61,633 bases of DNA from an uncultured Alphaproteobacteria bacterium. GTDB lineage: Bacteria; Pseudomonadota; Alphaproteobacteria; Rhodobacterales; Rhodobacteraceae. The notes below the pieces were generated by a model. It did no database searches. It was given only the letters and a program-made list of their open reading frames with translations, and was not told the DNA's origin. Positions 5,388 to 45,476 of this stretch are shown piece after piece. The position numbers were made by a program, and so were the translations under genes. Each line of letters starts with the position of its first letter. Position 1 is the stretch's first letter. The stretch is from the NCBI GenBank assembly GCA_902560505.1, contig CACELY010000002.1, forward strand, positions 1 through 61,633. The letters run 5' to 3'.

Positions 5388-5388
5388 G

Positions 5389-6900: not shown

Positions 6901-6953
6901 ATGAAGGCTTATTATGGTCCACATATACGTCACTCAAATAGAATTAATTTAAA

Positions 6954-8975: not shown

Positions 8976-8976
8976 A

Positions 8977-9552: not shown

Positions 9553-9596
9553 TAATAGACCTTTGATCAAAAGAGAGACTGTTTTAATATATAACT

Positions 9597-10679
9597 ATGG
9601 ATCAATTATTTAAAGAACTCACATTTTCAAATGGTGTAAAAGCAAAAAATAAATTTCTGCTCGCACCACTCACCAATATGCAAAGTCCTGACCAAGGCAG
9701 AATTTCTGATGATGAGTTTATTTGGCTTACAAAAAGGGCCGAAGGAGGTTTTGGGATAATAATGACTTGCGCCATGCCAGTGCTAAAATCTGGAATTGGT
9801 TGGAAAGGGCAACTTGGCATATATGATCCTAAACATGAAGATGGCCACTATCGTTTAAATGAGAGATTACACAATTTAGAGGCACTTTCTATAGCACAAA
9901 TTTTCCATGCAGGGATAAGGGCAGACATTAATTATTCAGGCGATAAAATAGGTCCAAGTATGAATTCAGAAAAGTCTGCGAGAGAGATGTCGATTACAGA
10001 AATTGAAGAAATGAAAGAAGCTTTTGTAGAATGTGCCATTAGAGCACACCAATGTAACTATGATGGCATAGAACTGCATGCTGCTCACGGTTATCTAATT
10101 GGTCAATTTCTTTCTAAAAAGTTTAATAAAAGAGAAGACGCTTATGGAGGTTCTTTCAAAAACAGAGCTAAGTTTCTAATAGATATTATCGATGCAATTA
10201 AAGAAAAGACTTCCTCAAGCTTTCTAATCGGTGTGAGGATTTCTCCAGAAAGGTTTGGTTTAGATACGAACGAAATGATAACACTGTATAAAACGCTTTG
10301 TGGAAATAATAATATTCATTTTATCGATATTTCACTCTGGGATTCATTTAAATTGGTCGATGATGGACCTTTCACAGGTGAGAGCTTGTTAAAACTATTT
10401 ACAACTATCGACAGAGGTTCAAAGTTATTAACCGTAGCAGGAAAGATTTTTTCTTATGAAGATATAGAAATTTTACAAAATAATAATGTCGACTTTTTCT
10501 GTTTAGGGAGAGCTGCAATTTTAGATCATCAATTTCCAAACCGCCTAAAGGCTGAAGGATCAAACTTTCAGCCCTACTCTGCTCCTGTCACAAGGGATCA
10601 TCTTTTGAAAGAAGGTTTATCAGAAACATTTGTTAACTATATGGCTACATGGAAAAATTTTGTAAGTGACCTAGTATGA
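9597..10679 (+). CDS. Old Yellow Enzyme family NAD(P)H:flavin oxidoreductase
   Basis: A 360-residue FMN-dependent TIM-barrel ene-reductase. It has NKFLLAPLTNMQSPDQGRISDDE at the N-terminus, QIFHAGI (about 101), GIELHAAHGYLIGQFLSKKFNKREDAYGGSFKNR (the OYE signature HAAHGYLI..QFLSP..N.RtDeYGGS, about 154-187), and FFCLGRAAILD near the C-terminus, where the phosphate-binding 'GR' motif is expected. It reduces activated C=C bonds with NAD(P)H. It overlaps the P450 gene by 4 bases (ATGA), so the two are co-translated. With the thiolase that follows, it fits stepwise breakdown of a lipid-like or terpenoid substrate. Confidence 0.92.
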   Translation: MDQLFKELTFSNGVKAKNKFLLAPLTNMQSPDQGRISDDEFIWLTKRAEGGFGIIMTCAMPVLKSGIGWKGQLGIYDPKHEDGHYRLNERLHNLEALSIAQIFHAGIRADINYSGDKIGPSMNSEKSAREMSITEIEEMKEAFVECAIRAHQCNYDGIELHAAHGYLIGQFLSKKFNKREDAYGGSFKNRAKFLIDIIDAIKEKTSSSFLIGVRISPERFGLDTNEMITLYKTLCGNNNIHFIDISLWDSFKLVDDGPFTGESLLKLFTTIDRGSKLLTVAGKIFSYEDIEILQNNNVDFFCLGRAAILDHQFPNRLKAEGSNFQPYSAPVTRDHLLKEGLSETFVNYMATWKNFVSDLV

Positions 10680-11881
10680 ACTACGACCCATCTGATCCAA
10701 AAACTTTGGCTAATCCCTATCCCTATTTCTTGGAGCTTAGAAATGACGATCCTATACACTGGCACACAAAATTGAAATCATGGATAATTACTAGATATGA
10801 TGACGTTAGATCTATACTTTCTAGTGATAATATTACTGTTGATAGGTTAAACAACTTTTATAGTAAACTCCCTACCAAGGAAGCAAAGCTATTGGCAGAA
10901 ATTGTAAAATATTTAAATCTATGGGCTGCATTCAGAAATCCTCCTGATCATACTAGAATGAGAAAGATAATGATGGTTGCGTTTACAAGAAAATCTATCA
11001 ACGAAATGCAACCAAAAATAAATGCTATAACGGAAGCCACATTATCTAAAATAAAAAATATGAGGGAAATTGACTTGGTTAATAATTATGCTTCTCCCAT
11101 TCCTGCGCTTACTATAATGCACCTACTAGGCGTTCCAATAGATATGCTAGACGAATTTAAATCATGGTCGGATGATATGTCAAAATTTATTGGCGGCGCT
11201 AGGAATGATAAGCATAAGTATGAGAAAGCGTCTCGTGGATGTAGAAAAATGGTTTCTTTCTTTAGAGAAATTATTGAAGAGCGGAGAGCAAATCCTTCCG
11301 ATGGTTTTCTAATGGATTTGATAAATGCATCTGTTGCAAACGATAAGTTTTCTGATGATGAGTTGATTGCGACTTGTATGTTAATTTTATTTGCTGGTCA
11401 TGAAACCACTACCAATCTTATATCAAACGGGATTCTCACTTTGATTAAAAATCCATTAGAACTATCAAAACTTCTTAAAAACCCCGATCTACTTGATCTT
11501 ACCATAGAAGAAATAATGAGGTATGACGGGCCAACAAACTCGCTCGTAAGAAATGTGGAAAAAGAACATGAACTTCATAATAAAACACTCAAGAAAGGTG
11601 ATAGGGTGTTTGCCATGATTTCTAGTGCAAACAGAGACGAAAATATCTTTGACAAACCAGATGTTTTTAAAATCGATCGTTCACCGAATAGGCATTTAAC
11701 ATTTGGGTATGGTCCTCATCTTTGTATTGGTGCTGCCCTCGCTAGAGAGGAAGGACGTATCGCTATATTTAATTTCTTCAAACAATATCCAAAAACTAGG
11801 CTGAAAGCGGAGAATTCCTTTGAATGGATTGATGCAATGGTGCCCCGTGGTCTTAAAAAGTTGGACGTTAATTTGATCTAA
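10676..11881 (+). CDS. Cytochrome P450
   Basis: A 401-residue soluble bacterial P450 with every hallmark: the I-helix oxygen-binding AGHETTTNL (about 240), the K-helix EIMR (ExxR, about 276), and the heme loop HLTFGYGPHLCIGAALAREEGR with the axial Cys near residue 351. Length is typical of CYP families in alphaproteobacteria that hydroxylate alkanes, terpenes or steroids. No ferredoxin or ferredoxin reductase is encoded next to it, so electrons must come from partners elsewhere. It is translationally coupled to the ene-reductase upstream and followed by a thiolase 14 bases downstream. Confidence 0.95.
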   Translation: MNYDPSDPKTLANPYPYFLELRNDDPIHWHTKLKSWIITRYDDVRSILSSDNITVDRLNNFYSKLPTKEAKLLAEIVKYLNLWAAFRNPPDHTRMRKIMMVAFTRKSINEMQPKINAITEATLSKIKNMREIDLVNNYASPIPALTIMHLLGVPIDMLDEFKSWSDDMSKFIGGARNDKHKYEKASRGCRKMVSFFREIIEERRANPSDGFLMDLINASVANDKFSDDELIATCMLILFAGHETTTNLISNGILTLIKNPLELSKLLKNPDLLDLTIEEIMRYDGPTNSLVRNVEKEHELHNKTLKKGDRVFAMISSANRDENIFDKPDVFKIDRSPNRHLTFGYGPHLCIGAALAREEGRIAIFNFFKQYPKTRLKAENSFEWIDAMVPRGLKKLDVNLI

Positions 11882-32161: not shown

Positions 32162-33103
32162 ATGAAAAGATCTATCAAAAACATTGTTCTTATAGCAGGT
32201 GGTGTAGGTGGTGCAAAATTAGCAGAGGGACTTAATTCCATAAAAGATATAAATCTTGCTATCATTGGCAATATTGCAGATGATGATGAGTTCCATGGGC
32301 TGAGGGTTTCTCCAGATATAGATACCTTAACATATACACTTTCAGGAATGGTGAACCGAAAGCAAGGATGGGGAGTAAAAAATGACAATTACAACACGCT
32401 CTCAATGTTAAATAAATTAGGGGAAGAAACCTGGATGTCTTTAGGTGATCTCGACTTTGGTCTTCATATATATAGACAGCACAGACTATTAAAAGATCAT
32501 CGTCCGACAATTATTGCCAATGAGATCGCTAAAAAATTGGGTGTAACGGCAGATATAATCTTACCAACTGACGATAAGATTAGAACAGAGGTGCAAACCA
32601 AGTCGGGTTGGATATCATTTCAGGAATATTTTGTCAAAAAACGCTGTTCACCGAAAATTATAAAACTAAAATACACAGGAATTAAATCAGCCAAAATCAC
32701 CAAAGAGGCAAAAAAAGCACTTTTTAATGCTGAACTTATAATTATTGCTCCGTCAAATCCTTTAGTAAGTATAAAACCTATAATTGAAATACCTGGGTTT
32801 AAATCCATAATTCAAAAAAATAATAAAAAGGTGATAGCAATAAGTCCGTTGATTCAAGGAAAGGCTTTAAAAGGTCCTGCATCAAAAATGCTTAAACAAT
32901 TAGGTTTCAAGCCAAATTCTTTTTCTTGTATGCAGTTCTATAAAGATATTTGCAAATCATTTATTCTCGATAGGTCCGATATAGGCTTAAAGAAACAATT
33001 TATTTTACTAAATCAAAAACCTATATTTACGAACACTCTGATGACCTCTCTTGCAGACAAGAGACGGTTGGCTAACTTCATAGTCAACCAACCTATTGAT
33101 TGA
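32162..33103 (+). CDS. cofD: 2-phospho-L-lactate (or enolpyruvyl) transferase CofD
   Basis: A 313-residue CofD/FbiA. It has LIAGGVGGAKLAEGL (about 8-22), GNIADDDEFHGLRVSPDIDTLTYTLSGM (about 37-64, the FO/diphosphate binding region), and IIAPSNPLVSIKPIIEIPGF plus SPLIQGKALKGPASKML, all signature CofD segments. It joins the phospholactyl or enolpyruvyl group to FO, making F420-0 (or dehydro-F420-0). The ATG at 32162 is preferred because the CofD alignment begins here; an upstream TTG at 32111 is not. It is the first gene of an F420 locus; FO synthase and CofC are not in the window. Confidence 0.93.
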   Translation: MKRSIKNIVLIAGGVGGAKLAEGLNSIKDINLAIIGNIADDDEFHGLRVSPDIDTLTYTLSGMVNRKQGWGVKNDNYNTLSMLNKLGEETWMSLGDLDFGLHIYRQHRLLKDHRPTIIANEIAKKLGVTADIILPTDDKIRTEVQTKSGWISFQEYFVKKRCSPKIIKLKYTGIKSAKITKEAKKALFNAELIIIAPSNPLVSIKPIIEIPGFKSIIQKNNKKVIAISPLIQGKALKGPASKMLKQLGFKPNSFSCMQFYKDICKSFILDRSDIGLKKQFILLNQKPIFTNTLMTSLADKRRLANFIVNQPID

Positions 33104-33188
33104 TCTTTTAAAAGACTTTAGAACTTTTTAAAAAAGTTGATTACAGATCGTGATCTATAACTAGCATTATCGCAGATTAAGGTAACCA

Positions 33189-33977
33189 TTGAAGAAAATG
33201 TCAAATTCAACGTTAAATTTAAATATAATTCCGCATATTCCTGACATTGATAACGGTGATAACATTAGAGACATCCTGATTTCTGCTCTCAACAAATCAT
33301 CTATATGTCTGAAAGAATTTGACGTTATTTGTATAGCACATAAAATATTTTCAAAAGCTGAGGGATGTATAATTAATTTAAAAGAAATTTCTCCCTCCAG
33401 AAAAGCAATCGAACTCGGGAAAAGCCTTAACAAGGACCCAAGAAAAGTCGAAGTCGTATTACAAGAAAGTAGTAATATTATTCGCTCTTTTAAAAGAGAG
33501 GAACAAAATGAAGGAACTCTCATTTGTCAGCATAAACTTGGATTTATCTGCGCTAATGCAGGGGTTGACCAGTCTAATATAGAGGGTCAGGAAACTGTAG
33601 TGACCGTTCCAAAAAACCCTGACCGTAGTGTGCAAGTTTTAAGAGATCAACTAAAAAATTACTTTGATTTAGAGAATTTGGGGATAGTTATGAGTGATAC
33701 CTTTGGAAGGCCATGGAGGATTGGACAGGTCAATGTCGCTATTGGTGTCGCAGGAATACCAGCAACAAAAAAAGAGCAGGGAACTACAGACGCTTGGGGA
33801 AATCAATTATACGTGACAGAACCAGCTTTTTGTGATGAAATAGCAGCAGCTTCGGGGTTGCTTATGAGCAAAGCAGGGAAATGTCCTGCAATTTTATTGA
33901 GAGGGCTTAGCTGGAGCGGCAAATATGGCTCTGCAAACGACATTCTACGGAAACAAAATGAGGATATGTTTAGATGA
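33189..33977 (+). CDS. cofE: Coenzyme F420-0:L-glutamate ligase
   Basis: A 262-residue CofE/FbiB N-domain. Signature segments include [30 protein letters not shown] (about 123-150), [24 protein letters not shown] (about 167-190) and [25 protein letters not shown] (about 212-240). It adds glutamates to F420-0. A nitroreductase-like second domain of actinobacterial FbiB is absent. The TTG start has AAGG 6 bases upstream; an ATG three codons later is possible. It is co-oriented with cofD and overlaps the reductase gene by 4 bases. Confidence 0.93.
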
Positions 33978-34642
33978 AATTATCAATTATTGGAGGAACT
34001 GGGCCCCAAGGTAAAGGCCTTGCCCTTAGATTTGCTAAGGCAGGTTTTGAAGTTGCTTTGGGATCACGTAATGAATCCAGAGCTATCGAAGTTGCAGATA
34101 ATTTAATATCAAAAAACCAAAACCTCGTAGGATCAATAACTGGGCTTTCGAATAGCGAAGCAATAGCATTCACGGACAAGTTTGTAATATTTTCAGTACC
34201 TTGGAGTGGTCACAATAATACACTTTCTGAAATCAAAGGGAAGCTAGCGGATAAGGTACTTGTTGATATAGTAGTGCCATTGGAAGACGGAAACCCAAGA
34301 AAAGTAGCTATGCCCCCTGAAGGCTCAGCTACAGAAGCAGCCCAAGCCATATTAGGGCCTGACATACCAGTAGTTGGCGCCCTCCATAATGTTTCCGCGA
34401 ATACACTTAATCACCTAGAGAAAAAAATTAATTGTGATATCTTGGTATGCGGAAACAATTTGGATGCTAGGTTAGATACTATAAAGTTGTTAAAAAACTT
34501 AGAAGTCGAGGCTTACAATGCTGGTGATGCAACATCAGCGAGATGTTTAGAGGCTATAACGCCTATATTGATAAGAATAAATATGTCTAAAGCGGTGCCT
34601 TTTTCACATGCTGGAATAAAAATTTGGCCACCGGAGGAATAA
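33974..34642 (+). CDS. npdG: NADPH-dependent F420 reductase
   Basis: A 222-residue Rossmann protein. [34 protein letters not shown] (residues 3-36) is the NADP-binding start of the Fno/NpdG family (GGTGxQGxGLA, with the SRNE basic position), and [19 protein letters not shown] and [16 protein letters not shown] are further marks. It moves hydride between NADPH and F420 and so links F420H2 to central metabolism. It is overlapped with cofE and is 14 bases upstream of the LLM reductase, making a compact F420 make-and-reduce unit feeding one F420-dependent enzyme. Confidence 0.92.
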
Positions 34643-34656
34643 AAAAGGAGGAAGAT

Positions 34657-35658
34657 ATGGAATTTGCAATTTGTTTTAAAGGGTTTGTTCAACCAGATCG
34701 AGCAAAAGCGCTGGTTAGATTGGCTGAAAGCGCTGGATTCACATATTGCTGGTTCTACGATAGCCACATCCTATGGAGAGAAAGCTTTGCTCAAATGGCT
34801 ATGTGTATGGAACACACACAAAAAATGCGGTTTGGACCATGTGTAACCAATCCCAACACTAGAGACTGGTCTTTAGCAGCATCAATGTTTGGCTCACTAG
34901 CTCTACAATCGAACGGTCGATTTGATATCGGTGTTGGAAGAGGAGACAGCGCTGTTCGCGTAATGGGAAAGAAGCCTGCGAACCTTGCACGAATGGAGGA
35001 ATTTATTTTAAAAGTAAAGGCAATGGTTAAGGGGGAAGAAGTCCAGTATGGTGATGTTCCTAACCCAATTCAATTTCCATGGGCAGAAGGATATGATTTG
35101 CCAGTCTGGGTAGCTGCATATGGGCCAAAGGCTCTTACATCTGCAGGAAAAGTTGGAGATGGTTTAGTGCTTCAAATTGCTTCTCCAACCGTTTGCAAAT
35201 GGCTAAGAGATCAAGCAGTGAAAGCAGGAGAAGAACATGGACGTGATATGTCAGACTACAAGGTAATGGTGGCTGCACCTTCTTACTTTGGAGACAGAGC
35301 AGAAAGTATTGAGAAAGTAAAATGGTTTCCTGCAATGGTTGGAAATCACGTAGCTGACATAGTTGAGAAGTATGGTGAAGATAATAAAGACATTCCTAAC
35401 AGCCTTACAGACTATATCAAAGATCGCCGCGGCTATGATTACTCTAAACATGGCCAGAGCGATAATCCTTATTTAGAATTTATCACAGATGAAATAGTTG
35501 AAGAATTTTGTGTTTTAGGAACCGCTGATCAACACGTAAAAAAGCTTAAAACATTAAAAGATCTCGGAGTAACCCAATTTAATATTTATCTGGATAGCGG
35601 AGACGAAGAGAGAATTATCGCAGAATACGGCGAAAATGTTATACCGGCTTTTTCATAA
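34657..35658 (+). CDS. LLM-class F420-dependent oxidoreductase (CPS_4043-type family)
   Basis: A 333-residue luciferase-like TIM-barrel enzyme, close to Mer/FGD-type F420 oxidoreductases. Marks: GFTYCWFYDSHILW (about 28-41), FGPCVTNPNTRDWSLAASMFGSLALQSNGRFDIGVGRGDSAVRVMG (about 57-103), LPVWVAAYGPKAL and GVTQFNIYLDSG at the end. AAGGAGG precedes the ATG by 6 bases. This family (TIGR03842-like in my recollection) is often the only F420-dependent LLM of proteobacteria and lacks an assigned reaction. It lies directly behind npdG and before hydantoinase-type genes, so it is a candidate for the reductive first step of that route. Confidence 0.88.
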   Translation: MEFAICFKGFVQPDRAKALVRLAESAGFTYCWFYDSHILWRESFAQMAMCMEHTQKMRFGPCVTNPNTRDWSLAASMFGSLALQSNGRFDIGVGRGDSAVRVMGKKPANLARMEEFILKVKAMVKGEEVQYGDVPNPIQFPWAEGYDLPVWVAAYGPKALTSAGKVGDGLVLQIASPTVCKWLRDQAVKAGEEHGRDMSDYKVMVAAPSYFGDRAESIEKVKWFPAMVGNHVADIVEKYGEDNKDIPNSLTDYIKDRRGYDYSKHGQSDNPYLEFITDEIVEEFCVLGTADQHVKKLKTLKDLGVTQFNIYLDSGDEERIIAEYGENVIPAFS

Positions 35659-35756
35659 GTGCCTCAGTTATTGAAAAACAGATTTTTCTTCATTTCTTAA
35701 CTGTAAAAAACTGTATTACAAATATAGTTCAGAAAATTTCTTAGGTTAATCAGCTC

Positions 35757-36668
35757 TTGATAAAAAAAATATCAATGGAGACATCAGAGGTTTGGGGACA
35801 CGGGGCAATGCTCCTTTTCTCCCTTTGTGTATCCGTATCATACATTTTAGGAGCCATAGTAGCAAATGATATAGAGCCAGGAGCCATAACAGCTGCAAGG
35901 TTTTTAATAGGAGCAATTGTACTGGGAACATTACTATTTATTTCAAAAAACCTTAAGAAAGAGGACTTCAAAAAACCATGGCGATTTTTGATACTCGGAT
36001 TGAGTATAGTTATTTATTTTGTATTAATGTTCGAAGCACTAAAAACAGCATCTTCTTTATCACTAGCTGTAGTTTTTACGCTCACCCCTTTTATTGCACT
36101 TTTTTTTGAATATTTTTTAAAGAAAAAAGTGACTCTCAGGGCGTTATTTGCAATTTTTCTTGGAGCAATGGGTGCAATTTGGGTGATTTTTGAAGGCAAT
36201 CTAGAAAACCTTTTAGCATTTAAAATAGGCTATGGCGAACTACTTTTTTTTTGGGGGTGTGTTGGACATGCTTTATATGCTATTTTGATCCCTGCTCTAA
36301 ACGAAGGGGAAAATGCAGCATCGCAAACCTTAGGAACTTTAAGTGCTGGATTTCTACTACTTATTTTAATTTTTACTAATGATGTTGTTGAAACAAATTG
36401 GCTTAACCTCTCTCCATTGGTTTGGATAACTACAATTTACTTGGCAACTATTGCGACAGCTTTTACTTTTTTCTTGATCCAGTTTGCAGCGAAAAGAATA
36501 AGCGCTTCAAAAGTAATGGCATACACCTATGCTGTTCCTTTTTGGGTGGCCTTAGGCGAAATAATTATTAACTCTAGCTTTCCAAATAAAAACATTATTT
36601 TGGGAGGCTTGATAATTGCCTTTGCATTATTAGTGCTAATTAGTGATAATGCAAAAACGAAGATATGA
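35757..36668 (+). CDS. DMT/EamA-family transporter
   Basis: A protein of about 300 residues with ten predicted membrane helices in two EamA repeats (VWGHGAMLLFSLCVSVSYILGAIV, then ITAARFLIGAIVLGTLLF; second repeat from ELLFFWGCVGHALYAILIP, ending WVALGEIIINSSFPNKNIILGGLIIAFALLVLI). It exports or imports small metabolites; substrate unknown. The start could be TTG at 35757 or ATG at 35775; neither has a strong ribosome binding site. Placed between the F420 reductase and the amidohydrolase genes, it may move a pyrimidine, its breakdown product or a related amino acid. Confidence 0.85.
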   Translation: MIKKISMETSEVWGHGAMLLFSLCVSVSYILGAIVANDIEPGAITAARFLIGAIVLGTLLFISKNLKKEDFKKPWRFLILGLSIVIYFVLMFEALKTASSLSLAVVFTLTPFIALFFEYFLKKKVTLRALFAIFLGAMGAIWVIFEGNLENLLAFKIGYGELLFFWGCVGHALYAILIPALNEGENAASQTLGTLSAGFLLLILIFTNDVVETNWLNLSPLVWITTIYLATIATAFTFFLIQFAAKRISASKVMAYTYAVPFWVALGEIIINSSFPNKNIILGGLIIAFALLVLISDNAKTKI

Positions 36669-36687
36669 AATTTCTTAAGAGGATCAA

Positions 36688-37935
36688 ATGTCAACACCAG
36701 CAGCTAATTTAAAAATAAACTCTTCTCGTCTTTGGGACTCTTTAATGGAGATGGCAAAAATAGGCCCTGGTGTCGCAGGTGGCAACAACAGACAAACACT
36801 CACGGACGAAGACGCAGAAGGACGAGAGTTGTTCCAAAAGTGGTGTGATAAGGAAAATTTGGAAATGGGTGTTGACAAAATGGGAACAATGTTTGCTAGA
36901 CGTGAAGGAACAGACCCAAATGCTTTACCTGTTTATGTTGGAAGCCATCTTGATACCCAGCCAACCGGGGGTAAGTATGATGGAGTTTTAGGAGTTCTGG
37001 GAGGTTTAGAAATAATAAGAACACTTAATGAACTTGATATAAGAACAAAGCATCCAATCGTCGTGGTTAATTTTACAAATGAAGAAGGAACTCGATTTGC
37101 TCCTCCAATGATGGCATCAGGAGTTTTTGCAGGAGTACACGAACTGCAATGGGCTTATGATAGAAAGGATGCAGCAGGGAAAACATTTGGAGAAGAAATC
37201 AAGCGCATCGGATGGATTGGTGACGAAGAGGTAGGGTCACGAAAAATGCATGCTTTTTTTGAACTCCATATAGAGCAAGGACCAATATTAGAGGCTGAAA
37301 ATACAGATATTGGCGTTGTGACCCATGGACAAGGGCTAAATTGGATACAAGTAACTCTTAATGGTCGGGAAAGTCATACGGGATCAACCCCCATGCCGAT
37401 GCGTAAAAATGCCGGCCTAGGTATGGCCAGAATTACAGAGCTAGTTCAAGAGATCGCAATGAGTCACCAGCCATCCGCAGTTGGTGGAATAGGTCAATGC
37501 GATGTGTTTCCTAATAGTAGAAACATAATACCTGGGAAAGTGGTATTTACTATAGATTTTAGATCTCCGTCGTTTGGCGTTCAGGATGATATGGAAAAAC
37601 GCTTATATGAAGGAGCAAAAAAAATTGCTTCTGATTTGGAATTGACTGTGGAATTTGAAAAGGTTGGACATTTTGACCCCGTGACTTTCGATGAAGGATG
37701 TGTTGACAAAGTTAGAAGAGCCGCTGAAAGACTAGGGTATTCACATAAAAATATTATATCGGGAGCAGGACATGACGCATGTTGGATTAATAAAGTAGCA
37801 CCAACGGCTATGATAATGTGCCCGTGCGTTGACGGTTTGAGCCACAATGAAGCAGAAGAGATATCTGAAAAGTGGGCTTCAGCAGGTGCAGATGTTTTAT
37901 TGCATGCAGTATTGGAAGCCGCAGAAATAGTTTAA
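36688..37935 (+). CDS. M20 amidase, beta-ureidopropionase / N-carbamoyl-amino-acid hydrolase type
   Basis: A 415-residue Zn-dependent hydrolase of the AmaB/AllC family. It has YVGSHLDTQPTGGKYDGVLGVLGG (first metal His/Asp, about 90-113), NFTNEEGTRFAPPMMASGVFAG (bridging Glu, about 128-149), FELHIEQGPILE (His, about 190-202), the lid-domain segment GRESHTGSTPMPMRKNAG and SGAGHDACWINKVAPTAMIMCPCVDGLSHNEAE at the end. These open N-carbamoyl compounds to amino acid, CO2 and NH3. Next to a dihydropyrimidinase it most likely acts on N-carbamoyl-beta-alanine. Allantoate is a less likely substrate. Confidence 0.92.
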   Translation: MSTPAANLKINSSRLWDSLMEMAKIGPGVAGGNNRQTLTDEDAEGRELFQKWCDKENLEMGVDKMGTMFARREGTDPNALPVYVGSHLDTQPTGGKYDGVLGVLGGLEIIRTLNELDIRTKHPIVVVNFTNEEGTRFAPPMMASGVFAGVHELQWAYDRKDAAGKTFGEEIKRIGWIGDEEVGSRKMHAFFELHIEQGPILEAENTDIGVVTHGQGLNWIQVTLNGRESHTGSTPMPMRKNAGLGMARITELVQEIAMSHQPSAVGGIGQCDVFPNSRNIIPGKVVFTIDFRSPSFGVQDDMEKRLYEGAKKIASDLELTVEFEKVGHFDPVTFDEGCVDKVRRAAERLGYSHKNIISGAGHDACWINKVAPTAMIMCPCVDGLSHNEAEEISEKWASAGADVLLHAVLEAAEIV

Positions 37936-37948
37936 TTGGGAGGGTAAA

Positions 37949-39409
37949 ATGACTAAAGTAATAAAAGGTGGAACCATTGTAACAGCGGACAGAGAGTGGA
38001 AAGCCGATATATTAATAGAAAATGAAAAGATCAAGCAGATTGGGGAAGATCTAAAAGGGGATGAGACCATTGACGCCGAAGGCGCATATGTGATCCCCGG
38101 CGGAATAGACCCACATACGCACCTTGAGATGCCATTTATGGGGACTACCGCTGCTGAGACTTTCGAAACAGGTACCTGGGCAGCTGCAGTTGGCGGAACA
38201 ACGATGTTAGTTGACTTCTGTCTTCCAGGTGAGGATGGAAGTTTGGTAAACGCAGTTAAGGAGTGGCATAGAAAGTCAGATCCTCAAATTTGTTCTGACA
38301 TCGGTTATCATATGGCGGTTACAGGTTGGTCTGAACAGATTTTTGATGATATGCCAAAGGTAGTTGAGATGGGAGTAAATTCATTCAAACATTTTATGGC
38401 TTATAAAGGAGCCCTAATGATTGAAGATGATGAAATGTTTGCTTCCTTTAAAAGATGTGCAGCTATCGGAGCTCTTCCCATGGTTCACGCCGAAAATGGT
38501 GACATTGTTGCAGAGCTTCAACAAAAATACCTTCGAGAAGGAGTAACTGGTCCTGAGGGGCACGCTTACTCAAGACCTCCGGAGGTAGAAGGTGAGGCAG
38601 CTAATAGAGCGATAATGATAGCCGATGCCGCAGGAGTACCGCTTTATGTTGTTCATGTATCTTGTGAGCAGGCTCATGAGGCTATTCGGAGAGCTAGGCA
38701 AAAAGGTATGAGAGTTTTTGGTGAACCCCTAATTCAATTTCTAACGCTAGATGAGAGCGAATACTTTAATAAAGATTGGGAACATGCCGCAAGACGGGTC
38801 ATGTCGCCTCCCTTTAGAGACAAATCGCATCAGGACGGATTATGGGCTGGTCTTCAGTCTGGATCCCTACAGGTTGTCGCTACAGACCATGCCGCGTTTT
38901 CGACGGAACAAAAAAGAATGGGAGTAAATGACTTCACTAAGATTCCAAATGGTAGCAACGGGCTTGAGGAAAGGTTATCCGTTCTTTGGACTGAAGGCGT
39001 GGAAACGGGGCGTTTAACTCGACAGGAGTTTGTCGCAATTACTTCAAGTAATATTGCTAAAATTCTAAACATTTATCCAAAAAAAGGAGCAATTTTAGAA
39101 GGCGCAGATGCAGATATTGTTGTTTGGGACCCAAAGATTTCTAAAACAATTTCGACAAGTACCCACAAATCAATTTTAGACTACAATGTTTTCGAAGGCT
39201 TCAAAGTCACAGCACAACCACGATACACATTGTCTAGGGGAGATGTAATATGGGCATGGGGCAAGAACTCTAGTCCACAACCAGGAAGGGGTAGATTTGT
39301 CCCAAGACCTGCTTTCCCAGCATTGCATAGTGCTGTATCAAAGTGGAAAGCTCTAAACACACCAAGAAAAATAGAACGTGATCCTTTAAATATACCAGCT
39401 GGAGTATAA
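37949..39409 (+). CDS. hydA: Dihydropyrimidinase / hydantoinase
   Basis: A 486-residue amidohydrolase of the D-hydantoinase family. It has PGGIDPHTHLEMPFMGTTAAETFETGT (HxH, about 49-75), the carboxylated Lys in FKHFMAYKGALM (about 146-157), VHAENGD (about 179), VVHVSCEQAHEA (about 235), and QVVATDHAAFS (metal Asp, about 308). It hydrolyses dihydrouracil or dihydrothymine (or hydantoins) to N-carbamoyl amino acids. Fourteen bases from the M20 gene; together the two make the last steps of the reductive pyrimidine pathway. Known dihydropyrimidine dehydrogenase subunits are not encoded here. Confidence 0.95.
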   Translation: MTKVIKGGTIVTADREWKADILIENEKIKQIGEDLKGDETIDAEGAYVIPGGIDPHTHLEMPFMGTTAAETFETGTWAAAVGGTTMLVDFCLPGEDGSLVNAVKEWHRKSDPQICSDIGYHMAVTGWSEQIFDDMPKVVEMGVNSFKHFMAYKGALMIEDDEMFASFKRCAAIGALPMVHAENGDIVAELQQKYLREGVTGPEGHAYSRPPEVEGEAANRAIMIADAAGVPLYVVHVSCEQAHEAIRRARQKGMRVFGEPLIQFLTLDESEYFNKDWEHAARRVMSPPFRDKSHQDGLWAGLQSGSLQVVATDHAAFSTEQKRMGVNDFTKIPNGSNGLEERLSVLWTEGVETGRLTRQEFVAITSSNIAKILNIYPKKGAILEGADADIVVWDPKISKTISTSTHKSILDYNVFEGFKVTAQPRYTLSRGDVIWAWGKNSSPQPGRGRFVPRPAFPALHSAVSKWKALNTPRKIERDPLNIPAGV

Positions 39410-39430
39410 AATCTACACGAAGGAAAACTT

Positions 39431-40204
39431 ATGATAAGCGTATCTGATGTTAACCTAACTTTTGAAACAAATGACGGTCCTGTAAATGCTTTGAAGAATG
39501 TATCTATGGAAGTCAATGAGGGAGATTTTGTATCCTTTATTGGACCATCCGGATGTGGGAAAACAACTCTTCTAAGAGTAATTGCAGCACTTGAGACCCC
39601 TACGGAAGGCAGGGTGACGGTAAATAATATGACACCTGATGAAGCTAGAAAAGCTAGACAATATGGGTATGTGTTTCAGGCAGCAGGCTTATATCCGTGG
39701 AGAACGGTGAGTGGAAACATTAAACTACCCTTGGAAATCATGGGATACTCCACCAGTGAGAAAGAAGACCGAACACGAAAAGTAATAGACTTAGTAGAAT
39801 TAAACGGGTTTGAAAAAAAGTTCCCTTGGCAGCTGTCTGGAGGAATGCAACAACGGGCGTCCATTGCAAGAGCTTTGGCATTTGACGCCAACATCCTATT
39901 AATGGATGAACCTTTCGGAGCTCTGGACGAAATTGTTAGAGATAGATTGAACGGAGAACTTTTAAATTTATGGGCTAGAACAAGAAAAACTATATGTTTT
40001 GTCACGCATTCAATTCCGGAAGCAGTTTTCTTATCAACAAAAATTGTTGTTATGTCTCCGAGACCAGGAAGAATTACTGACATAATAGAAAGTCCACTAC
40101 CAAAAAAACGTGATTTAAATATAAGAGATAGTAGGGAGTTTATAAAAATTGCACAAAGAGTGAGAGAAGGCTTAAAGGCTGGTCAAACCGAAGATGTTTT
40201 TTAG
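39431..40204 (+). CDS. ABC transporter ATP-binding protein (NMT1/ThiZ-type)
   Basis: A 257-residue ATPase of the nitrate/taurine/pyrimidine importer class. Walker [15 protein letters not shown] (about 37-50), signature [15 protein letters not shown] (about 138-152), Walker [14 protein letters not shown] (about 156-168), and an H-loop [11 protein letters not shown]. It powers the two permeases that follow. Six bases before the stop of the hydantoinase-like gene there is no gap; the operon continues with 21 bases of spacing. The likely cargo is a pyrimidine, dihydropyrimidine or hydantoin-like compound, by context. Confidence 0.95.
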
Positions 40205-40218
40205 AAGGATTGATAGAA

Positions 40219-41088
40219 GTGAAAACATCTTATCTTGCAAATAAATTTATTCCCGTTTCTACAATTGTAATCTTAATCGGATTATTTTGGTATCTTGTCG
40301 CGGTTCCAATGAACTCTGATAAGGTTTCAAGACAATTTAAAAACCTTACAGCAAGTGAGCATATACTAAAGTGCTGGAGTTTAAAAAAACCAAAGCTCCC
40401 TACCCCACATCAGATAATTACTGAAATGGTAAATACAACTTTTTTTAAAAAAATCAGTTCAAAGCGTTCTCTTGTTTACCATGGATGGATTACTTTGCAG
40501 GCAACCTTGGCTGGATTTTTCTTGGGAACACTCCTTGGAATTTTACTAGCTTTAGGCATTGTACATAATAGGGCAATGGACCTTAGTGTTATGCCATGGG
40601 TAATTGCAAGTCAAACTATACCCATTCTTGCTATAGCACCAATGATAATAGTTGTGATGAATTCGGTTGGGGTAACAGGTTTGTTACCAAAAGCAATTAT
40701 TTCTATGTATCTCTCTTTTTTTCCAGTTGTTGTAGGAATGGTAAAAGGTTTGAGATCACCAGACCAGATTCAGCTAGATCAAATGAGGACATGGTCTGCA
40801 TCCTCAAGGGAAATCCTATGGTATTTGAGGTTTCCTTCTTCCTTACCCTTTCTTTTTGCTTCATTAAAGGTCGGAGTTGCTGCTTCGCTGGTTGGAGCCA
40901 TAGTTGGAGAACTTCCTTCGGGTGCTATTGCCGGTTTGGGTGCGAGAATGCTAGCAGGCACTTATTATGGTCAGACAATTATGATTTGGAGCGCTTTGTT
41001 TGCTGCTGCTTTTCTTGCTGCATTTTTAGTTTTTACAATAGATTTCTTACAAAAAATCACGCTTAAGAGAATGGCTATAATTAGATGA
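40219..41088 (+). CDS. ABC transporter permease (NMT1-type importer)
   Basis: A 289-residue inner-membrane permease. The EAA loop lies in MRTWSASSREILWYLRFPSSLPFLFASLKVGVAASLVGAIVGE (about 190-240), and the N-terminus has one anchor helix plus a long soluble loop before five more helices, as in ThiX/SsuC-like proteins. GTG at 40219 is preferred over the TTG at 40210, because AAGGA sits 9 bases before the GTG but directly on the TTG. It is overlapped by the second permease (ATGA). Confidence 0.9.
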   Translation: MKTSYLANKFIPVSTIVILIGLFWYLVAVPMNSDKVSRQFKNLTASEHILKCWSLKKPKLPTPHQIITEMVNTTFFKKISSKRSLVYHGWITLQATLAGFFLGTLLGILLALGIVHNRAMDLSVMPWVIASQTIPILAIAPMIIVVMNSVGVTGLLPKAIISMYLSFFPVVVGMVKGLRSPDQIQLDQMRTWSASSREILWYLRFPSSLPFLFASLKVGVAASLVGAIVGELPSGAIAGLGARMLAGTYYGQTIMIWSALFAAAFLAAFLVFTIDFLQKITLKRMAIIR

Positions 41089-41927
41089 ATACTTATCTAA
41101 TTCTTTTTTTAATTATTTGGCTTGGGGGATGGTGGATTAATATGAAAATATCCAACCACAAGGACGCTAATTTGCCTAGATTTATAGTCCCAACTTTATT
41201 CGGGATTGTTATTCTATTAATGTGGGAGTTAGCTGTCATCGGATTACAAATAAATCCTATTTTGTTACCTGCTCCATCGGCAATAGCTTTAAAGTTTTCT
41301 CGTTCTTTAGACATTCTGTGGATTGATTTTGTACAGACCTTGGTAAAAGGTGCTCTGTCTGGTTACATATTGGGTTGTGGCGCAGCTTTTCTTACAGCTA
41401 TTGCGATTGATAAGTTTAATTTTCTTAAACGAGGTCTATTACCTTTAGGTAATTTTATTTCGGCGCTACCAATTGTGGGAATGGCCCCAATTTTTGTAAT
41501 GTGGTTTGGGTTCGATTGGCAATCAAAGTGCGCTATTGTTGTAGTTATGGTTTATTTTCCAATGCTTGTAAATAGCGTGCAAGGATTAGAACTTATAGAT
41601 CCTAGCCGACAAGACCTTATGAGAACATACAGCGCGTCCTACACTCAAACACTAATTAAACTTCGTTTGCCATCTGCATTGCCCTTTATTTTTAATGGAT
41701 TAAAAATATGCTCAACCCTTGCACTAATCGGGGCGATTGTTGCTGAGTTTTTTGGATCTCCTATTAAGGGGATGGGATTTCGAATATCGTCAGAGGTTGG
41801 TCGATTTGCATTGGACATGGTATGGGCGGAAATCTTTGTTGCAGCAATTGCTGGCTGCCTTTTTTATGGCTTAATTGCGTTAATTGAAAAACGCACTACT
41901 TTTTGGCATCCTAGTCAACAAAAATAA
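41085..41927 (+). CDS. ABC transporter permease, second subunit
   Basis: A 280-residue permease with about six membrane helices and an EAA loop in DLMRTYSASYTQTLIKLRLPSALPFIFNGLKICSTLALIGAIVAEFFG (about 180-225). It pairs with the 40219 gene as a heterodimeric channel, as in ThiX-type importers that carry two different permeases. It begins within the stop codon of the first permease (4-base overlap). The DNA after its stop (41928-41987) leads to the binding-protein gene, which has its own ribosome binding site. Confidence 0.9.
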   Translation: MNTYLILFLIIWLGGWWINMKISNHKDANLPRFIVPTLFGIVILLMWELAVIGLQINPILLPAPSAIALKFSRSLDILWIDFVQTLVKGALSGYILGCGAAFLTAIAIDKFNFLKRGLLPLGNFISALPIVGMAPIFVMWFGFDWQSKCAIVVVMVYFPMLVNSVQGLELIDPSRQDLMRTYSASYTQTLIKLRLPSALPFIFNGLKICSTLALIGAIVAEFFGSPIKGMGFRISSEVGRFALDMVWAEIFVAAIAGCLFYGLIALIEKRTTFWHPSQQK

Positions 41928-41987
41928 CATTGCGTATCAATTGAATTTGATTAACAATTAAAGAAACGATTACTAAGAGGGAAAAAA

Positions 41988-42974
41988 ATGAAGAAGATTC
42001 TATCTGTATTGACCTGTGCTTTTATATTAAGTGCATCAGCTGTTTTTTCTGCTGACAAGGTCACAATTCAGTTAAAATGGGTTACTCAAGCTCAATTTGC
42101 TGGATATTATGTAGCAAAAGATAAAGGCTTTTACGACGCTGAAGGCCTAGATGTAACTATTAAACCAGGCGGGCCAGATATTGCTCCAGCACAAGTTTTA
42201 GCGGGTGGTGGGGCCGATGTTATGGTTGACTGGATGCCTTCTGCTCTAGCAGCTAGAGAAAAAGGTCTTCCGCTGGTAAACATAGCACAACCATTTAAAA
42301 GCTCTGGTATGATGCTTACTTGCAGAAAAGATATGGGAGTTAATTCTACCGCTGATCTTAAGGGGAAAACGTTGGGAGTTTGGTTCTATGGAAACGAATA
42401 TCCATTCCTGAGTTGGATGAGCCGACTAGGCTTAAAAACCGACGGTAGTGCAAATGGAGTGACTGTATTAAGACAAGGTTGGGGTGTTGAGCCTTTAACA
42501 GAGGGCCAAGCTGCATGCGTATCTACTATGTCCTATAATGAGTATTGGGTTGTTAGAGATGCTGGCTACTCTCCTGAACAGCTAACAGTTTTCAAATACC
42601 AGTCGGAAGGTGCTGCAACTCTTGAAGATGGGTTATATGTTCACGAGAAAAACCTAAGCGACGCTGCATTCAAAGATAAAATGGTAAGATTTGTTCGAGC
42701 ATCCATGAAAGGTTGGAAGTATGCAGAAGCAAATCCAAAAGAAGCCGCGATGATTATTCTAGATAACGATGATGCGGGTGTGCAAACCGAGAAGCATCAA
42801 GTTAGAATGATGGGCGAAATTGCAAAACTTACAGCTGGATCTAATGGGTCACTTGATCCTGCAGATTACGAAAGAACAGTAAAGGTGCTAATGTCCGGTG
42901 ATTCTGACCCTGTAATAACAAAGAAGCCATCAGGCGCTTGGACTAACGAAATAACAAACGCAGCGCTCAATTAG
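41988..42974 (+). CDS. NMT1/THI5-like periplasmic substrate-binding protein
   Basis: A 328-residue binding protein. Signal peptide about residues 1-21 (ILSVLTCAFILSASAVFS). It then reads VTIQLKWVTQAQFAGYYVAKDKGFYDAEGLDVTIKPGGPDIAPAQVLAGGGADVMVDWMPSALAAREKG, the NMT1 pattern of ThiY-type proteins that bind pyrimidine-like ligands (N-formyl-4-amino-5-aminomethyl-2-methylpyrimidine or thymine precursors). This favours a pyrimidine cargo for the transporter. It is the last gene before a strong terminator. Confidence 0.92.
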   Translation: MKKILSVLTCAFILSASAVFSADKVTIQLKWVTQAQFAGYYVAKDKGFYDAEGLDVTIKPGGPDIAPAQVLAGGGADVMVDWMPSALAAREKGLPLVNIAQPFKSSGMMLTCRKDMGVNSTADLKGKTLGVWFYGNEYPFLSWMSRLGLKTDGSANGVTVLRQGWGVEPLTEGQAACVSTMSYNEYWVVRDAGYSPEQLTVFKYQSEGAATLEDGLYVHEKNLSDAAFKDKMVRFVRASMKGWKYAEANPKEAAMIILDNDDAGVQTEKHQVRMMGEIAKLTAGSNGSLDPADYERTVKVLMSGDSDPVITKKPSGAWTNEITNAALN

Positions 42975-42999
42975 TGTTACTTGAATAAATTAAAATTTG

Positions 43000-43025
43000 A
43001 AAAGGCGGAAATTCCTCCGCCTTTT
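43000..43025 (+). terminator. Rho-independent terminator after the ABC importer operon
   Basis: AAAAGGCGGA (43000-43009) and TCCGCCTTTT (43016-43025) form a perfect 10-base stem with a 6-base loop, followed on the + strand by CTTATAT after the T-rich arm. It lies 26 bases after the binding-protein stop and 18 bases before the class III aminotransferase gene, so that gene may be transcribed separately or by read-through. Confidence 0.85.
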
Positions 43026-43043
43026 CTTATATAGAAGAACATA

Positions 43044-44327
43044 ATGAATAAGAATATTTCTCTAAAAGAGTGGCAAACTCGGGCACAGAAGGTACTTCCA
43101 GGCGCTGGTTTCGGTAATTTCGACCCTAATATCAGTCTAAAAAGAGGTTTAGGTTCACGAGTGTGGGACGAAGATAACAAAGAATATATAGATTTTTTAA
43201 TTGGTTCGGGGCCAATGATACTAGGCCATGGAAATGAAGAAGTATTAGATGCTATACGAGCACAACTCTGTGAAGGTCTTACTTTTTTCACCAATAATTC
43301 AAAGGGAGTTGAGTTAGCTGAAGAAATTTGTAACGCAGTGAAATGTGCCGATCAGATTAGGTTTGTAAGCTCTGGTGGTGAAGCTGATATGTATGCGATG
43401 CGATTGGCAAGAGCACATACAGGTAGAAATAAAATCCTCAAGTTTGAGGGAGGGTATCATGGGATGAGTGGAGACTCACTGATGAGTCTTGCACCTAACA
43501 AAATGGTAAATTTTCCATTAGCAGTGCCGGATTCAGCGGGAATACCTGAAGCCGTTAGAGATGATATCTTAGTAGCACCATTCAACGATCCTCAAGTCGC
43601 TTCGGAAATAATGAATGAGTATATAGATCAAATTGCTGGGGTAATTGTAGAACCACTTCAAAGAATAATTCCGCCTATAAGAGGATTTTTAGAGCATCTA
43701 AGGGCTGAAACAAAAAGAATTGGTGCGCTTTTGATTTTTGACGAAATAGTAACTGGTTTTAGGTTGGCCTACGGAGGTGCACAAGAACTGTACGGCGTAG
43801 TGCCAGATTTATGCACGCTTGGGAAGATCATTGGAGGTGGCTTGCCTCTGGCGGCTATAGCCGGTGAAAAAGAAATTATGAATCATTTTGATAAAAATAT
43901 TGTTGGCGAAGAAAAGTTTACTTTCCAAATTGGTACCCTTAGTGGAAACCCATTGGCAGCAGTAGCTGGTTTAAAAACGATGGAGATACTTAGAAGAGAT
44001 GGTGCTTATAATAGGATAAGAGAAAACGGACAGTTTTTAATCGATAGCGTTACAAAACATCTTAAGAATAACAATATAGAGTTTCAAATTGTTGGTGATC
44101 CAACACTTTTCGATATAATTTTTTCTGAAACACCTGTTATTAATTACCGTGATACAAAGAAAAATAAGGCTGAATATTCAAAAACTTTCAATCAAATAGT
44201 TAGAGAACTCGGAATACTAAAAGCCGATGCCAAACTTTATACACACCTTGCGCTTACCGAAGAAGATCTTCAGAAAACCGATAGCGCATTTAAAAAAGCG
44301 GCTGAGGGCATTGCAGCAATATCCTAG
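43044..44327 (+). CDS. Class III aminotransferase (glutamate-1-semialdehyde aminomutase-like)
   Basis: A 427-residue PLP enzyme. It has GAGFGNFDPNISLKRGLGSRVWDEDNKEYIDFLIGSGPMILGHGNEEV at the N-terminus, VSSGGEADMYAMRLARAHTGRNKILKFEGGYHGMSGD (about 104-146), LLIFDEIVTGFR (Asp, about 230), and the PLP Lys in LCTLGKIIGGGLPLAAI (about 260-276). The GSAM-like start is common to many omega-amino acid:pyruvate transaminases. Given the nearby pyrimidine pathway, beta-alanine or 3-aminoisobutyrate would be natural substrates, but true GSA aminomutase is not excluded from motifs alone. Confidence 0.85.
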   Translation: MNKNISLKEWQTRAQKVLPGAGFGNFDPNISLKRGLGSRVWDEDNKEYIDFLIGSGPMILGHGNEEVLDAIRAQLCEGLTFFTNNSKGVELAEEICNAVKCADQIRFVSSGGEADMYAMRLARAHTGRNKILKFEGGYHGMSGDSLMSLAPNKMVNFPLAVPDSAGIPEAVRDDILVAPFNDPQVASEIMNEYIDQIAGVIVEPLQRIIPPIRGFLEHLRAETKRIGALLIFDEIVTGFRLAYGGAQELYGVVPDLCTLGKIIGGGLPLAAIAGEKEIMNHFDKNIVGEEKFTFQIGTLSGNPLAAVAGLKTMEILRRDGAYNRIRENGQFLIDSVTKHLKNNNIEFQIVGDPTLFDIIFSETPVINYRDTKKNKAEYSKTFNQIVRELGILKADAKLYTHLALTEEDLQKTDSAFKKAAEGIAAIS

Positions 44328-44342
44328 TTTAAACAAGAACAC

Positions 44343-45476
44343 ATGATCCCTTGCCAAAGACATCTTTTTGATATTCCTGAAGACGTCGCATATTTAAACA
44401 CTGCATACATGTCCCCCCTTTTGAACAGCGTTGTCACTGCCATAGATAGCGGAAGTCGTTTAAAAGCCAATCCATGGAAACTCAAGATAAGCAATTTTTT
44501 TGATGATATAGAAGAGGCTCGAAATTTATTTTCGAACCTTATGCATACAGTTGGAACCAATATAGCTATTATTCCCTCTGCTTCTTATGGGGTTCAGACT
44601 GCCGCAAAAAATTTACAGATTTCAGCGGGATCAAAAATACTTGTTCTATCTGATCAGTTTCCATCTAATGTCTATCCGTGGCGGCGTATAGCCAAGCAAA
44701 AAGGTGCTGAGATCAAAACTGTAAATGTCCCTGATGGTGAAGCAGCCACAGATCATATAATCGACGCTTTAGATGAACGGTTTAGCGTTTGCGCAACTGC
44801 TAATGTATTATGGACAAATGGATCATTAATAGATTTAGAAAAAGTGAAAGCAAAATGCTTGGAATGTAACACTGAGCTCGTTGTTGACCTTACCCAATCA
44901 GCAGGCGCTTTTGATATAGACCTTAGTAAAATAGATCCTGCTTTTGCAATTGTAGCAAATTATAAATGGATGCTTGGCCCCTACTCAACTGGATTTCTTT
45001 ATGTTTCCCCTAAATTCCATAATGGGGAGCCACTTGAAGAAGGTTGGATAACAAGAAAAAACAGTAAGGATTTTGCAAATCTCGTCGATTACCAGGATTA
45101 TTATGAACCTGGAGCAATCAGGTATGATATGGGGCAAAGATCAAATTTTTCTCTTATTCCCGGTGTGCTAGAGGCACTCCGTCAAATACAGAAATGGGGT
45201 ATACCCAACATTCAGAACACTCTCTATAACTCTAACCTTAATCTCTGTAAAAAGCTTAGCGATTTGGGGTTGCAAATTCCAAGACCTGAAAATAGAGGGC
45301 CTCATTTTATAGGTGCAAAACTTCCTTATAAAACTCCAAAAAACATTCTAGAAACTTTGGCAGAAAACAAAATATTTGTCTCTGAGAGAGGTGGCAATTT
45401 AAGAATTACACCTCACTTATGGAACAATACTAACGACTTTGAGCGATTTACGGAAATCTTGAGAAAAATATTATGA
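44343..45476 (+). CDS. Class V aminotransferase-fold protein
   Basis: A 377-residue fold-type I enzyme of the class V (cysteine desulfurase / isopenicillin N epimerase) group. LNTAYMSPLLNSVVTAIDSG is the family start, VVDLTQSAGAFDIDLSKIDPAF holds the PLP-binding Asp and Gln (about 180-200), and ANYKWMLGPYSTGFLYVSP has the PLP Lys (about 206-212). No conserved cysteine loop of NifS/IscS is seen, so desulfurase activity is unlikely. It follows the class III gene after 15 bases and probably shares a transcript; their joint role is unclear. Confidence 0.87.
   Translation: MIPCQRHLFDIPEDVAYLNTAYMSPLLNSVVTAIDSGSRLKANPWKLKISNFFDDIEEARNLFSNLMHTVGTNIAIIPSASYGVQTAAKNLQISAGSKILVLSDQFPSNVYPWRRIAKQKGAEIKTVNVPDGEAATDHIIDALDERFSVCATANVLWTNGSLIDLEKVKAKCLECNTELVVDLTQSAGAFDIDLSKIDPAFAIVANYKWMLGPYSTGFLYVSPKFHNGEPLEEGWITRKNSKDFANLVDYQDYYEPGAIRYDMGQRSNFSLIPGVLEALRQIQKWGIPNIQNTLYNSNLNLCKKLSDLGLQIPRPENRGPHFIGAKLPYKTPKNILETLAENKIFVSERGGNLRITPHLWNNTNDFERFTEILRKIL

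Follow-up and report, generated by a model that had tools for sequence, protein, structure and literature searches.

An alphaproteobacterial operon that probably encodes reductive pyrimidine degradation with an F420-dependent first step

We analysed a stretch of 61,633 nucleotides (hereafter the window; part of contig C2) from the genome of an uncultured alphaproteobacterium of the family Rhodobacteraceae, in which eleven tightly packed genes run on the plus strand from cofD to the gene for an NMT1-type substrate-binding protein (32162-42974). This operon probably encodes reductive pyrimidine degradation with a first step that would depend on the rare cofactor F420. A sequence-only reading of the same DNA had listed cofD, cofE, an NADPH:F420 reductase, an enzyme of the luciferase-like monooxygenase (LLM) type, a drug/metabolite transporter (DMT) carrier, an M20 hydrolase, a dihydropyrimidinase and a four-gene NMT1 importer; all are present on one strand (Table 1). 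Its further suggestion, that the F420 produced and reduced by these gene products is used in pyrimidine catabolism, is supported by a complete set of cof genes and by co-occurrence in relatives, and the data point to the first step as the one served, with the LLM enzyme replacing dihydropyrimidine dehydrogenase. The genome (G000) amounts to 1.28 Mb and is 71% complete; C, G and L numbers are our labels for contigs, genomes and loci.

In the proposed scheme, the NMT1-type importer would bring in the pyrimidine base and NpdG would reduce F420 with NADPH. The LLM enzyme would transfer a hydride from reduced F420 (F420H2) to C6 of uracil or thymine, across the activated C5=C6 bond, yielding the 5,6-dihydropyrimidine. 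Dihydropyrimidinase would then open the ring, and the M20 enzyme would remove the carbamoyl group as CO2 and ammonia, leaving beta-alanine (or 3-aminoisobutyrate). In this scheme the unrelated iron-sulfur flavoenzyme PreTA/PydA would be replaced by the LLM enzyme. The parts are ordinary ones, but they form an unusual and coherent combination: a known pathway with what appears to be a new enzyme at its start. The order of steps was derived from gene content and from the exchange with preTA described below, and we infer the substrate, reaction direction, bound cofactor and importer cargo from sequence.

The LLM protein of the window is a full-length member of family TIGR03842, covering positions 1-329 of 329. 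NCBI labels this family a hypothetical equivalog, and we know of no member with a tested substrate. When a profile built from 51 relatives was compared with solved structures, the F420-dependent methylenetetrahydromethanopterin reductase Mer was the best match (9e-48) and the luciferases, which use flavin mononucleotide (FMN), came last. An AlphaFold model of the protein (predicted local distance difference test score 89.9, predicted template modelling score 0.90) gave a concordant result in Foldseek, where ranks 1-28 were all F420-dependent chains, Mer first, and the first FMN enzyme appeared at rank 29. Nearest sequence and modelled fold thus suggest that the enzyme is F420-dependent, although the bound cofactor is predicted on these grounds. 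Mer is the closest solved protein in both sequence and fold (23-27% identity, template modelling score ~0.8). It nevertheless differs from the window protein, which Mer models score at 117-127 bits, far below their cut-offs of 276 and 349, and whose conserved stretch around Y253-H265 aligns poorly to Mer. The pyrimidine monooxygenase RutA also belongs to the LLM superfamily and attacks uracil, but is a flavin enzyme that acts oxidatively; its model TIGR03612 is absent from the 21 NCBIfam matches of the window LLM, RutA elsewhere in the genome not having been searched for.

FO synthase and CofC, on whose presence in the genome the sequence-only reading had staked its proposal, are encoded outside the window: cofG, cofH and cofC lie together on contig C35 and, with cofD and cofE of the window, make up a complete F420 gene set. 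CofH on C35 scored 491 bits against TIGR03551 (cut-off 374), while cofG and cofC are respectively 64% and 30% identical to those of Leisingera (tblastn). Of eight genomes (the window's own and the seven closest to it), six had cofH over cut-off. In the seventh relative (L043) the genes cofG-H-D-C-E-npdG-LLM form one row, so the split of the cof genes in the window's clade looks secondary.

A search for cofH covered 43 LLM genomes, chosen mainly as cases where cofG or cofH had not been seen beside the LLM gene; it was over cut-off in 18 and matched below cut-off in four more. No cofH match was obtained in four Devosia/Pelagibacterium-type genomes (L080-L083), in which CofE and a predicted F420-0 importer adjoin the TIGR03842 LLM and three of which have an Fgd-like gene. 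The importer models TIGR03868 and TIGR03869 were over cut-off in L081, and tblastn found matches in L080, L082 and L083. These genomes are predicted to salvage F420-0. At L081 the salvage island, with CofE, importer and LLM in one row, occupies 4975-11002. The other genomes without a cofH match were twelve from Chloroflexota, considered below, and L041, L042, L087, L114 and L116.

The surroundings of LLM genes were assessed at 80 loci, the best 80 of 583 confirmed candidates from a scan of genome contigs. Neighbours were counted up to 10 kb on each side of the LLM gene at a score of at least 100 bits, and many of the loci are truncated where a contig ends. Within these limits hydA lies near the LLM gene at 33 loci, an M20 or nitrilase-type amidohydrolase at 40, a class-III aminotransferase at 30, a malonate/methylmalonate-semialdehyde dehydrogenase (MMSDH) at 20, a RutR-like regulator at 26 and an NCS1 or NMT1 importer at 29; any cof gene is found at 46 and npdG at 43. 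Neither preA nor preT was found near the LLM gene at any of the 80. F420 genes are joined by at least one of hydA, M20, nitrilase or RutR genes at 33/80 loci, and 22 have pyrimidine genes only. Linkage of hydA (33/80) is beyond chance, as far less than 1% is expected by a rough estimate for an approximately single-copy gene in a 4 Mb genome. Proximity of the two genes was seen in Pseudomonadota, Chloroflexota (21 bases apart at L090, 0.7-2.7 kb at others), Actinomycetota (at most 0.1 kb at L112 and L034) and Acidobacteriota (2.6 kb at L111); in Marinomonas-type loci hydA is ~11 kb from the LLM gene, just beyond the counted range. The association of LLM, hydA and F420 genes that the sequence-only reading expected to see in relatives is thereby borne out, save at loci with F420 genes only.

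Individual loci illustrate the range of arrangements. Paracoccus denitrificans has a cofGHDCE-npdG-LLM row; its hydA lies 7 kb away from LLM, and PreA was not matched in this genome. In Paracoccus alcaliphilus p402633 the same row is followed by an ABC (ATP-binding cassette) importer with a binding protein that shares 25% identity with that of the window; no hydA is annotated in the 46 kb examined, the plasmid gene tables being incomplete. At three outlying loci (L087, L106 and L110) no pyrimidine-pathway gene was detected among the proteins scanned. Some weak matches, such as those of L044-L046 and L113, may be paralogues, and L043 ends 0.45 kb past the LLM gene. In L113, which comes from a haloarchaeal record (Saliphagus), a TIGR03842-like gene lies near M20, aminotransferase and MMSDH-like genes, with a weak hydA match (33%). 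The record titled Nocardioides marinus DP1N28-1 (L049) has an LLM 99% and a cofG 93% identical to those of Leisingera and matches G143, a genome of the window's family, so its name looks wrong.

Related loci also carry genes for later steps. In Leisingera the genes divergent from the cof operon are NCS1, hydA, M20, an aminotransferase over the AptA cut-off, pntB and pntA, and the regulator scores 198 bits against the RutR model (equivalog cut-off 368). The transhydrogenase genes pntB and pntA (L033:5254-8271) separate the pyrimidine genes from the F420 genes and are a possible NADPH supply for NpdG. At the Chloroflexota locus L105 a nitrilase-type amidase takes the place of M20 (TIGR03381, 256 bits, below the cut-off of 410), next to an MMSDH scoring 544 bits (cut-off 448), and close relatives of both occur in most of L095-L104. 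Most of L090 and L095-L105 have the nitrilase-type amidase, MMSDH and an NMT1-type importer beside LLM and hydA. Such genes fit the conversion of uracil and thymine through beta-alanine and 3-aminoisobutyrate to acyl-CoA. Of the two substrate classes in the title of the sequence-only reading, pyrimidine and hydantoin, the first stands better: the RutR-like regulators, AptA-type omega-aminotransferase and MMSDH of related loci favour uracil and thymine, and hydantoin is less supported.

The same downstream cassette was found with either first enzyme. The window has an M20-hydA-importer cassette behind cofD-cofE-npdG-LLM and the DMT gene, with no TetR gene in the operon. Its relative G143 carries the LLM operon together with a second locus (L131) comprising preT-preA, TetR, M20, hydA and an NMT1 importer, which shares 56-75% identity with the window in its M20 and importer genes; three more loci of the window's order (L132-L134) have the layout of L131. 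The operon resembles the NAD(P)H-dependent PreTA/PydA pathway in its dihydropyrimidinase, M20 enzyme and NMT1 importer, and differs from it in having LLM and F420 genes in place of PreA, which was not matched in the window genome, and in lacking TetR. In gammaproteobacteria, G367 (L143) has cofGHDCE-npdG-LLM and G382 (L141) has preT-preA, each beside M20, hydA, NMT1 importer and RutR-like genes. The hydA proteins of these two genomes are sisters (100/99) in a tree of 51 proteins, and LLM-linked and PreA-linked dihydropyrimidinases of gammaproteobacteria interleave in it. A single clade of LLM-linked hydA was ruled out, as the label needs four changes on the tree.

Co-occurrence was also assessed genome-wide. 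The order to which Marinomonas belongs (G222, from which locus L063 comes) was covered by 145 genomes (at least 90% completeness requested); TIGR03842 was over cut-off in 8, PreA in 11 and hydA in 18. LLM occurred with hydA in seven of eight genomes and PreA with hydA in eight of eleven; LLM and PreA never occurred together. The three hydA-positive genomes with neither had the lowest best hydA scores. Fisher tests gave P 1.0e-6 for LLM with hydA and P 0.004 for mutual exclusion of LLM and PreA within hydA-positive genomes. Among 196 genomes of the window's order (Rhodobacterales), LLM was over cut-off in two (G000 and G143), PreA in 178 and hydA in 190; all PreA-positive genomes also had hydA, so that PreA accompanies hydA in 178/190. 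At genus level PreA was present in 2/9 LLM genera versus 80/86, where genera of metagenome-assembled genomes (MAGs) were assigned by us, and in 2/5 versus 80/86 when named isolates only were counted (P 0.006). The window genome and its seven nearest relatives have both hydA and LLM, and PreA (NF006183, E 1e-30) was matched in none of the eight, G000 being incomplete. The PreA search was extended to 80 LLM genomes (50 including G000, plus 30; L067 lies outside the set), and hydA was over cut-off in 47 of the 50.

A number of observations weigh against an F420-dependent first step that replaces PreTA. Sixteen of the 80 LLM loci have F420 genes with no pyrimidine genes in reach, and nine have neither near, some of these being cut by contig ends. 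The sixteen, with the 22 of the reverse kind, might suggest that F420 and pyrimidine genes merely travel together with no functional tie. We regard this as very improbable, since the linkage recurs in several phyla with differing gene orders and since genome-wide co-occurrence in the Marinomonas order is far above chance. The P values for that order are nonetheless optimistic, as several of its LLM-positive genomes are close kin (several probably Marinomonas).

Furthermore, no cofH was found at E 1e-80 in twelve Chloroflexota MAGs (L090, L095-L105) that have LLM and hydA. F420 dependence is doubtful there, and these genomes speak most strongly against F420 being required universally. They raise the alternative that, in some lineages at least, FMN is the cofactor of the LLM enzyme, which would act as a reductase or as a RutA-like monooxygenase, with the adjoining proteobacterial F420 genes serving something else; the shared superfamily of RutA would be in keeping with this. 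Such a role seems improbable to us, given that the nearest sequences and folds are F420-dependent, that a cof gene is present at 46/80 LLM loci, often in the same row, that F420-0 salvage genes stand beside LLM in four genomes without a cofH match, and that dihydropyrimidinase needs a reduced, not an oxygenated, ring.

The replacement of PreTA by the LLM enzyme is qualified further by genomes that have both or neither. PreA was over cut-off in seven of the 80 LLM genomes (G208, G214-G218 and G408; four of Leisingera type, three Limimaricola, G208 being the same genome as G143), so LLM and PreA are not strict alternatives and may differ in substrate; strict exclusion was ruled out on this basis. 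The six PreA-positive genomes among the 50 have two hydA genes each, one of them 2.4-3.1 kb from preA. Five of the 50 have a PreA-like match below cut-off (142-152 bits), probably dihydroorotate dehydrogenases. In the window's order, 11/188 LLM-negative hydA-positive genomes are also without PreA, so absence of PreA alone is no proof of a substitute, and the window genome is itself only 71% complete. Six of those eleven (L135-L140: G015, G040, G114, G066, G159 and G010) keep the cassette of TetR, M20, hydA and NMT1 importer; no first-step enzyme was recognised there among ten proteins scanned from five of the six loci. Finally, the window's hydA clade (100/100) is separate from the PreA-linked clade (100/99) in Alphaproteobacteria. 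As the former is not nested among PreA-linked proteins, the exchange there was no recent swap and was either older or effected by horizontal transfer of a cassette.

Some genomes retain both systems, which is the chief reason to allow for a substrate that is neither uracil nor thymine. The LLM enzyme might be F420-dependent and belong to the pathway but reduce another N-heterocycle (thymine only, a modified pyrimidine, a hydantoin precursor or a xenobiotic), or feed hydA from another side, with PreTA handling uracil where both are present. This would accommodate the seven LLM genomes with PreA, the two hydA copies in the six searched, the hypothetical status of TIGR03842 and the acceptance of hydantoins by dihydropyrimidinases. 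We nevertheless consider it unlikely, as closely related hydA genes occur with either enzyme and as the RutR-like regulators, AptA aminotransferase and MMSDH of related loci point to uracil or thymine and beta-alanine.

Two described systems come close to the proposed first step. The ferredoxin-dependent dihydropyrimidine dehydrogenase PydAc of clostridia is likewise a first-step variant with another electron donor; it is a PydA homologue without the flavin adenine dinucleotide domain, whereas the window LLM comes from another superfamily and would use F420H2 (PMC7332683). A putative F420-dependent LLM protein has been proposed as the yanthine reductase of uricolytic clusters in Chloroflexota; it too would reduce an N-heterocycle, in a pathway that also employs the dihydropyrimidinase homologue HyuA, encoded in the cluster, and the M20 enzyme YgeY (PMC12507026). 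That protein is given as PF00296 and was proposed for uric acid together with SsnA (PMC12507026), whereas the loci studied here have beta-alanine genes and no SsnA. We give almost no credence to the idea that the window cluster is such a reductive uric acid pathway: none of E. coli SsnA, YgfK or YgeW came out as best match at any of the 80 loci or at the Streptomyces locus (L034), and genes suited to beta-alanine are present at the Chloroflexota, Actinomycetota and Leisingera loci. Stray matches were limited to YgeX at L053 (60 bits), xdhA at L070 and L079, and YgeY, weakly, at L081, L083 and L100. For want of SsnA, YgfK and YgeW the uric acid pathway was ruled out for these loci. No SsnA was seen among the scanned genes of the window operon with NCBIfam and Pfam profiles, the scan aimed at SsnA having covered the 80 related loci and L034. 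In the open PubMed Central literature, which excludes subscription journals and preprints, no statement linking F420 to pyrimidine catabolism was found among the matches listed, and no mention of TIGR03842 or CPS_4043 was found in the part searched.

The features of the operon and its surroundings are collected in Table 1. Two pairs of operon genes overlap by 4 bases, and the other gaps measure 5-98 bases. The M20 protein exceeds the cut-off of a hydantoinase/carbamoylase subfamily model and is a putative beta-ureidopropionase. The DMT/EamA carrier gene also stands between LLM and M20 in six of the seven close relatives; in the seventh, L043, it is partial and at the contig end. Position 42974 may or may not be the end of the operon, and the two aminotransferase genes that follow may or may not be co-transcribed with it; the first of them is a possible beta-alanine aminotransferase. 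The intervening hairpin is terminator-like on the minus strand only, its plus-strand tail failing the scan criterion. Terminator-like sites in the region numbered 14 versus 11.4 (standard deviation 3.6) in shuffled sequences, no excess, and promoter-like sites were likewise no commoner than in shuffles. The host is probably marine: the LLM proteins of six uncultured Alphaproteobacteria are 97-99% identical to that of the window (88% in the seventh relative), and the isolate names of the six (AG-...) presumably denote marine single cells.

Table 1 Features of the operon and its downstream flank in the window.
Feature	Position	Strand	Evidence
cofD, 2-phospho-L-lactate (or related) transferase	32162..33103	+	PF01933 131 bits; TIGR01819 253 bits, slightly below cut-off 257
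cofD, possible alternative upstream start (TTG)	32111	+	
cofE, F420-0:L-glutamate ligase	33189..33977	+	TIGR01916 226 bits, cut-off 181
npdG (fno), NADPH-dependent F420 reductase	33974..34642	+	TIGR01915 171 bits, cut-off 150
LLM oxidoreductase, proposed F420H2-dependent dihydropyrimidine dehydrogenase	34657..35658	+	TIGR03842 502 bits, cut-off 295
DMT/EamA-type carrier	35757..36668	+	PF00892 90 bits
M20 N-carbamoyl amidohydrolase, proposed beta-ureidopropionase	36688..37935	+	TIGR01879 393 bits, cut-off 204
hydA, dihydropyrimidinase	37949..39409	+	TIGR02033 590 bits, cut-off 393
ABC importer ATPase	39431..40204	+	best NCBIfam matches SaoA and taurine-type ABC ATPases, below cut-offs; adjoins hydA in relatives too
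ABC importer permease 1	40210..41088	+	open reading frame; kept in relatives
ABC importer permease 2	41085..41927	+	open reading frame; kept in relatives
NMT1/THI5-type substrate-binding protein	41988..42974	+	PF09084 130 bits
28-base hairpin, possible terminator	42999..43026		GGCGG/CCGCC arms; between importer and aminotransferase genes
class-III aminotransferase, glutamate-1-semialdehyde-mutase-like	43044..44327	+	PF00202 193 bits; PRK00062 366 bits, below cut-off 398
class-V aminotransferase	44343..45476	+	PF00266 85 bits

On balance we favour a wider reading, in which TIGR03842 would be an F420H2-using dihydropyrimidine dehydrogenase, the second of its kind and not homologous to the first, distributed across Pseudomonadota, Chloroflexota, Actinomycetota, Acidobacteriota and possibly a haloarchaeon, and would have changed places with PreTA next to this cassette on more than one occasion. 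Pyrimidine catabolism would then be a main reason why many Proteobacteria make F420, with some relatives importing F420-0 to sustain it. The role of F420 in Proteobacteria is stated as an open question in a published account (PMC8498797). If the reading is true, it would assign F420 a definite role in this phylum, provide a function for a family so far annotated as a hypothetical equivalog, and add a first-step enzyme of pyrimidine breakdown unrelated to the known one. The reading would also answer what F420 does in Paracoccus denitrificans, and is testable in a tractable laboratory species.

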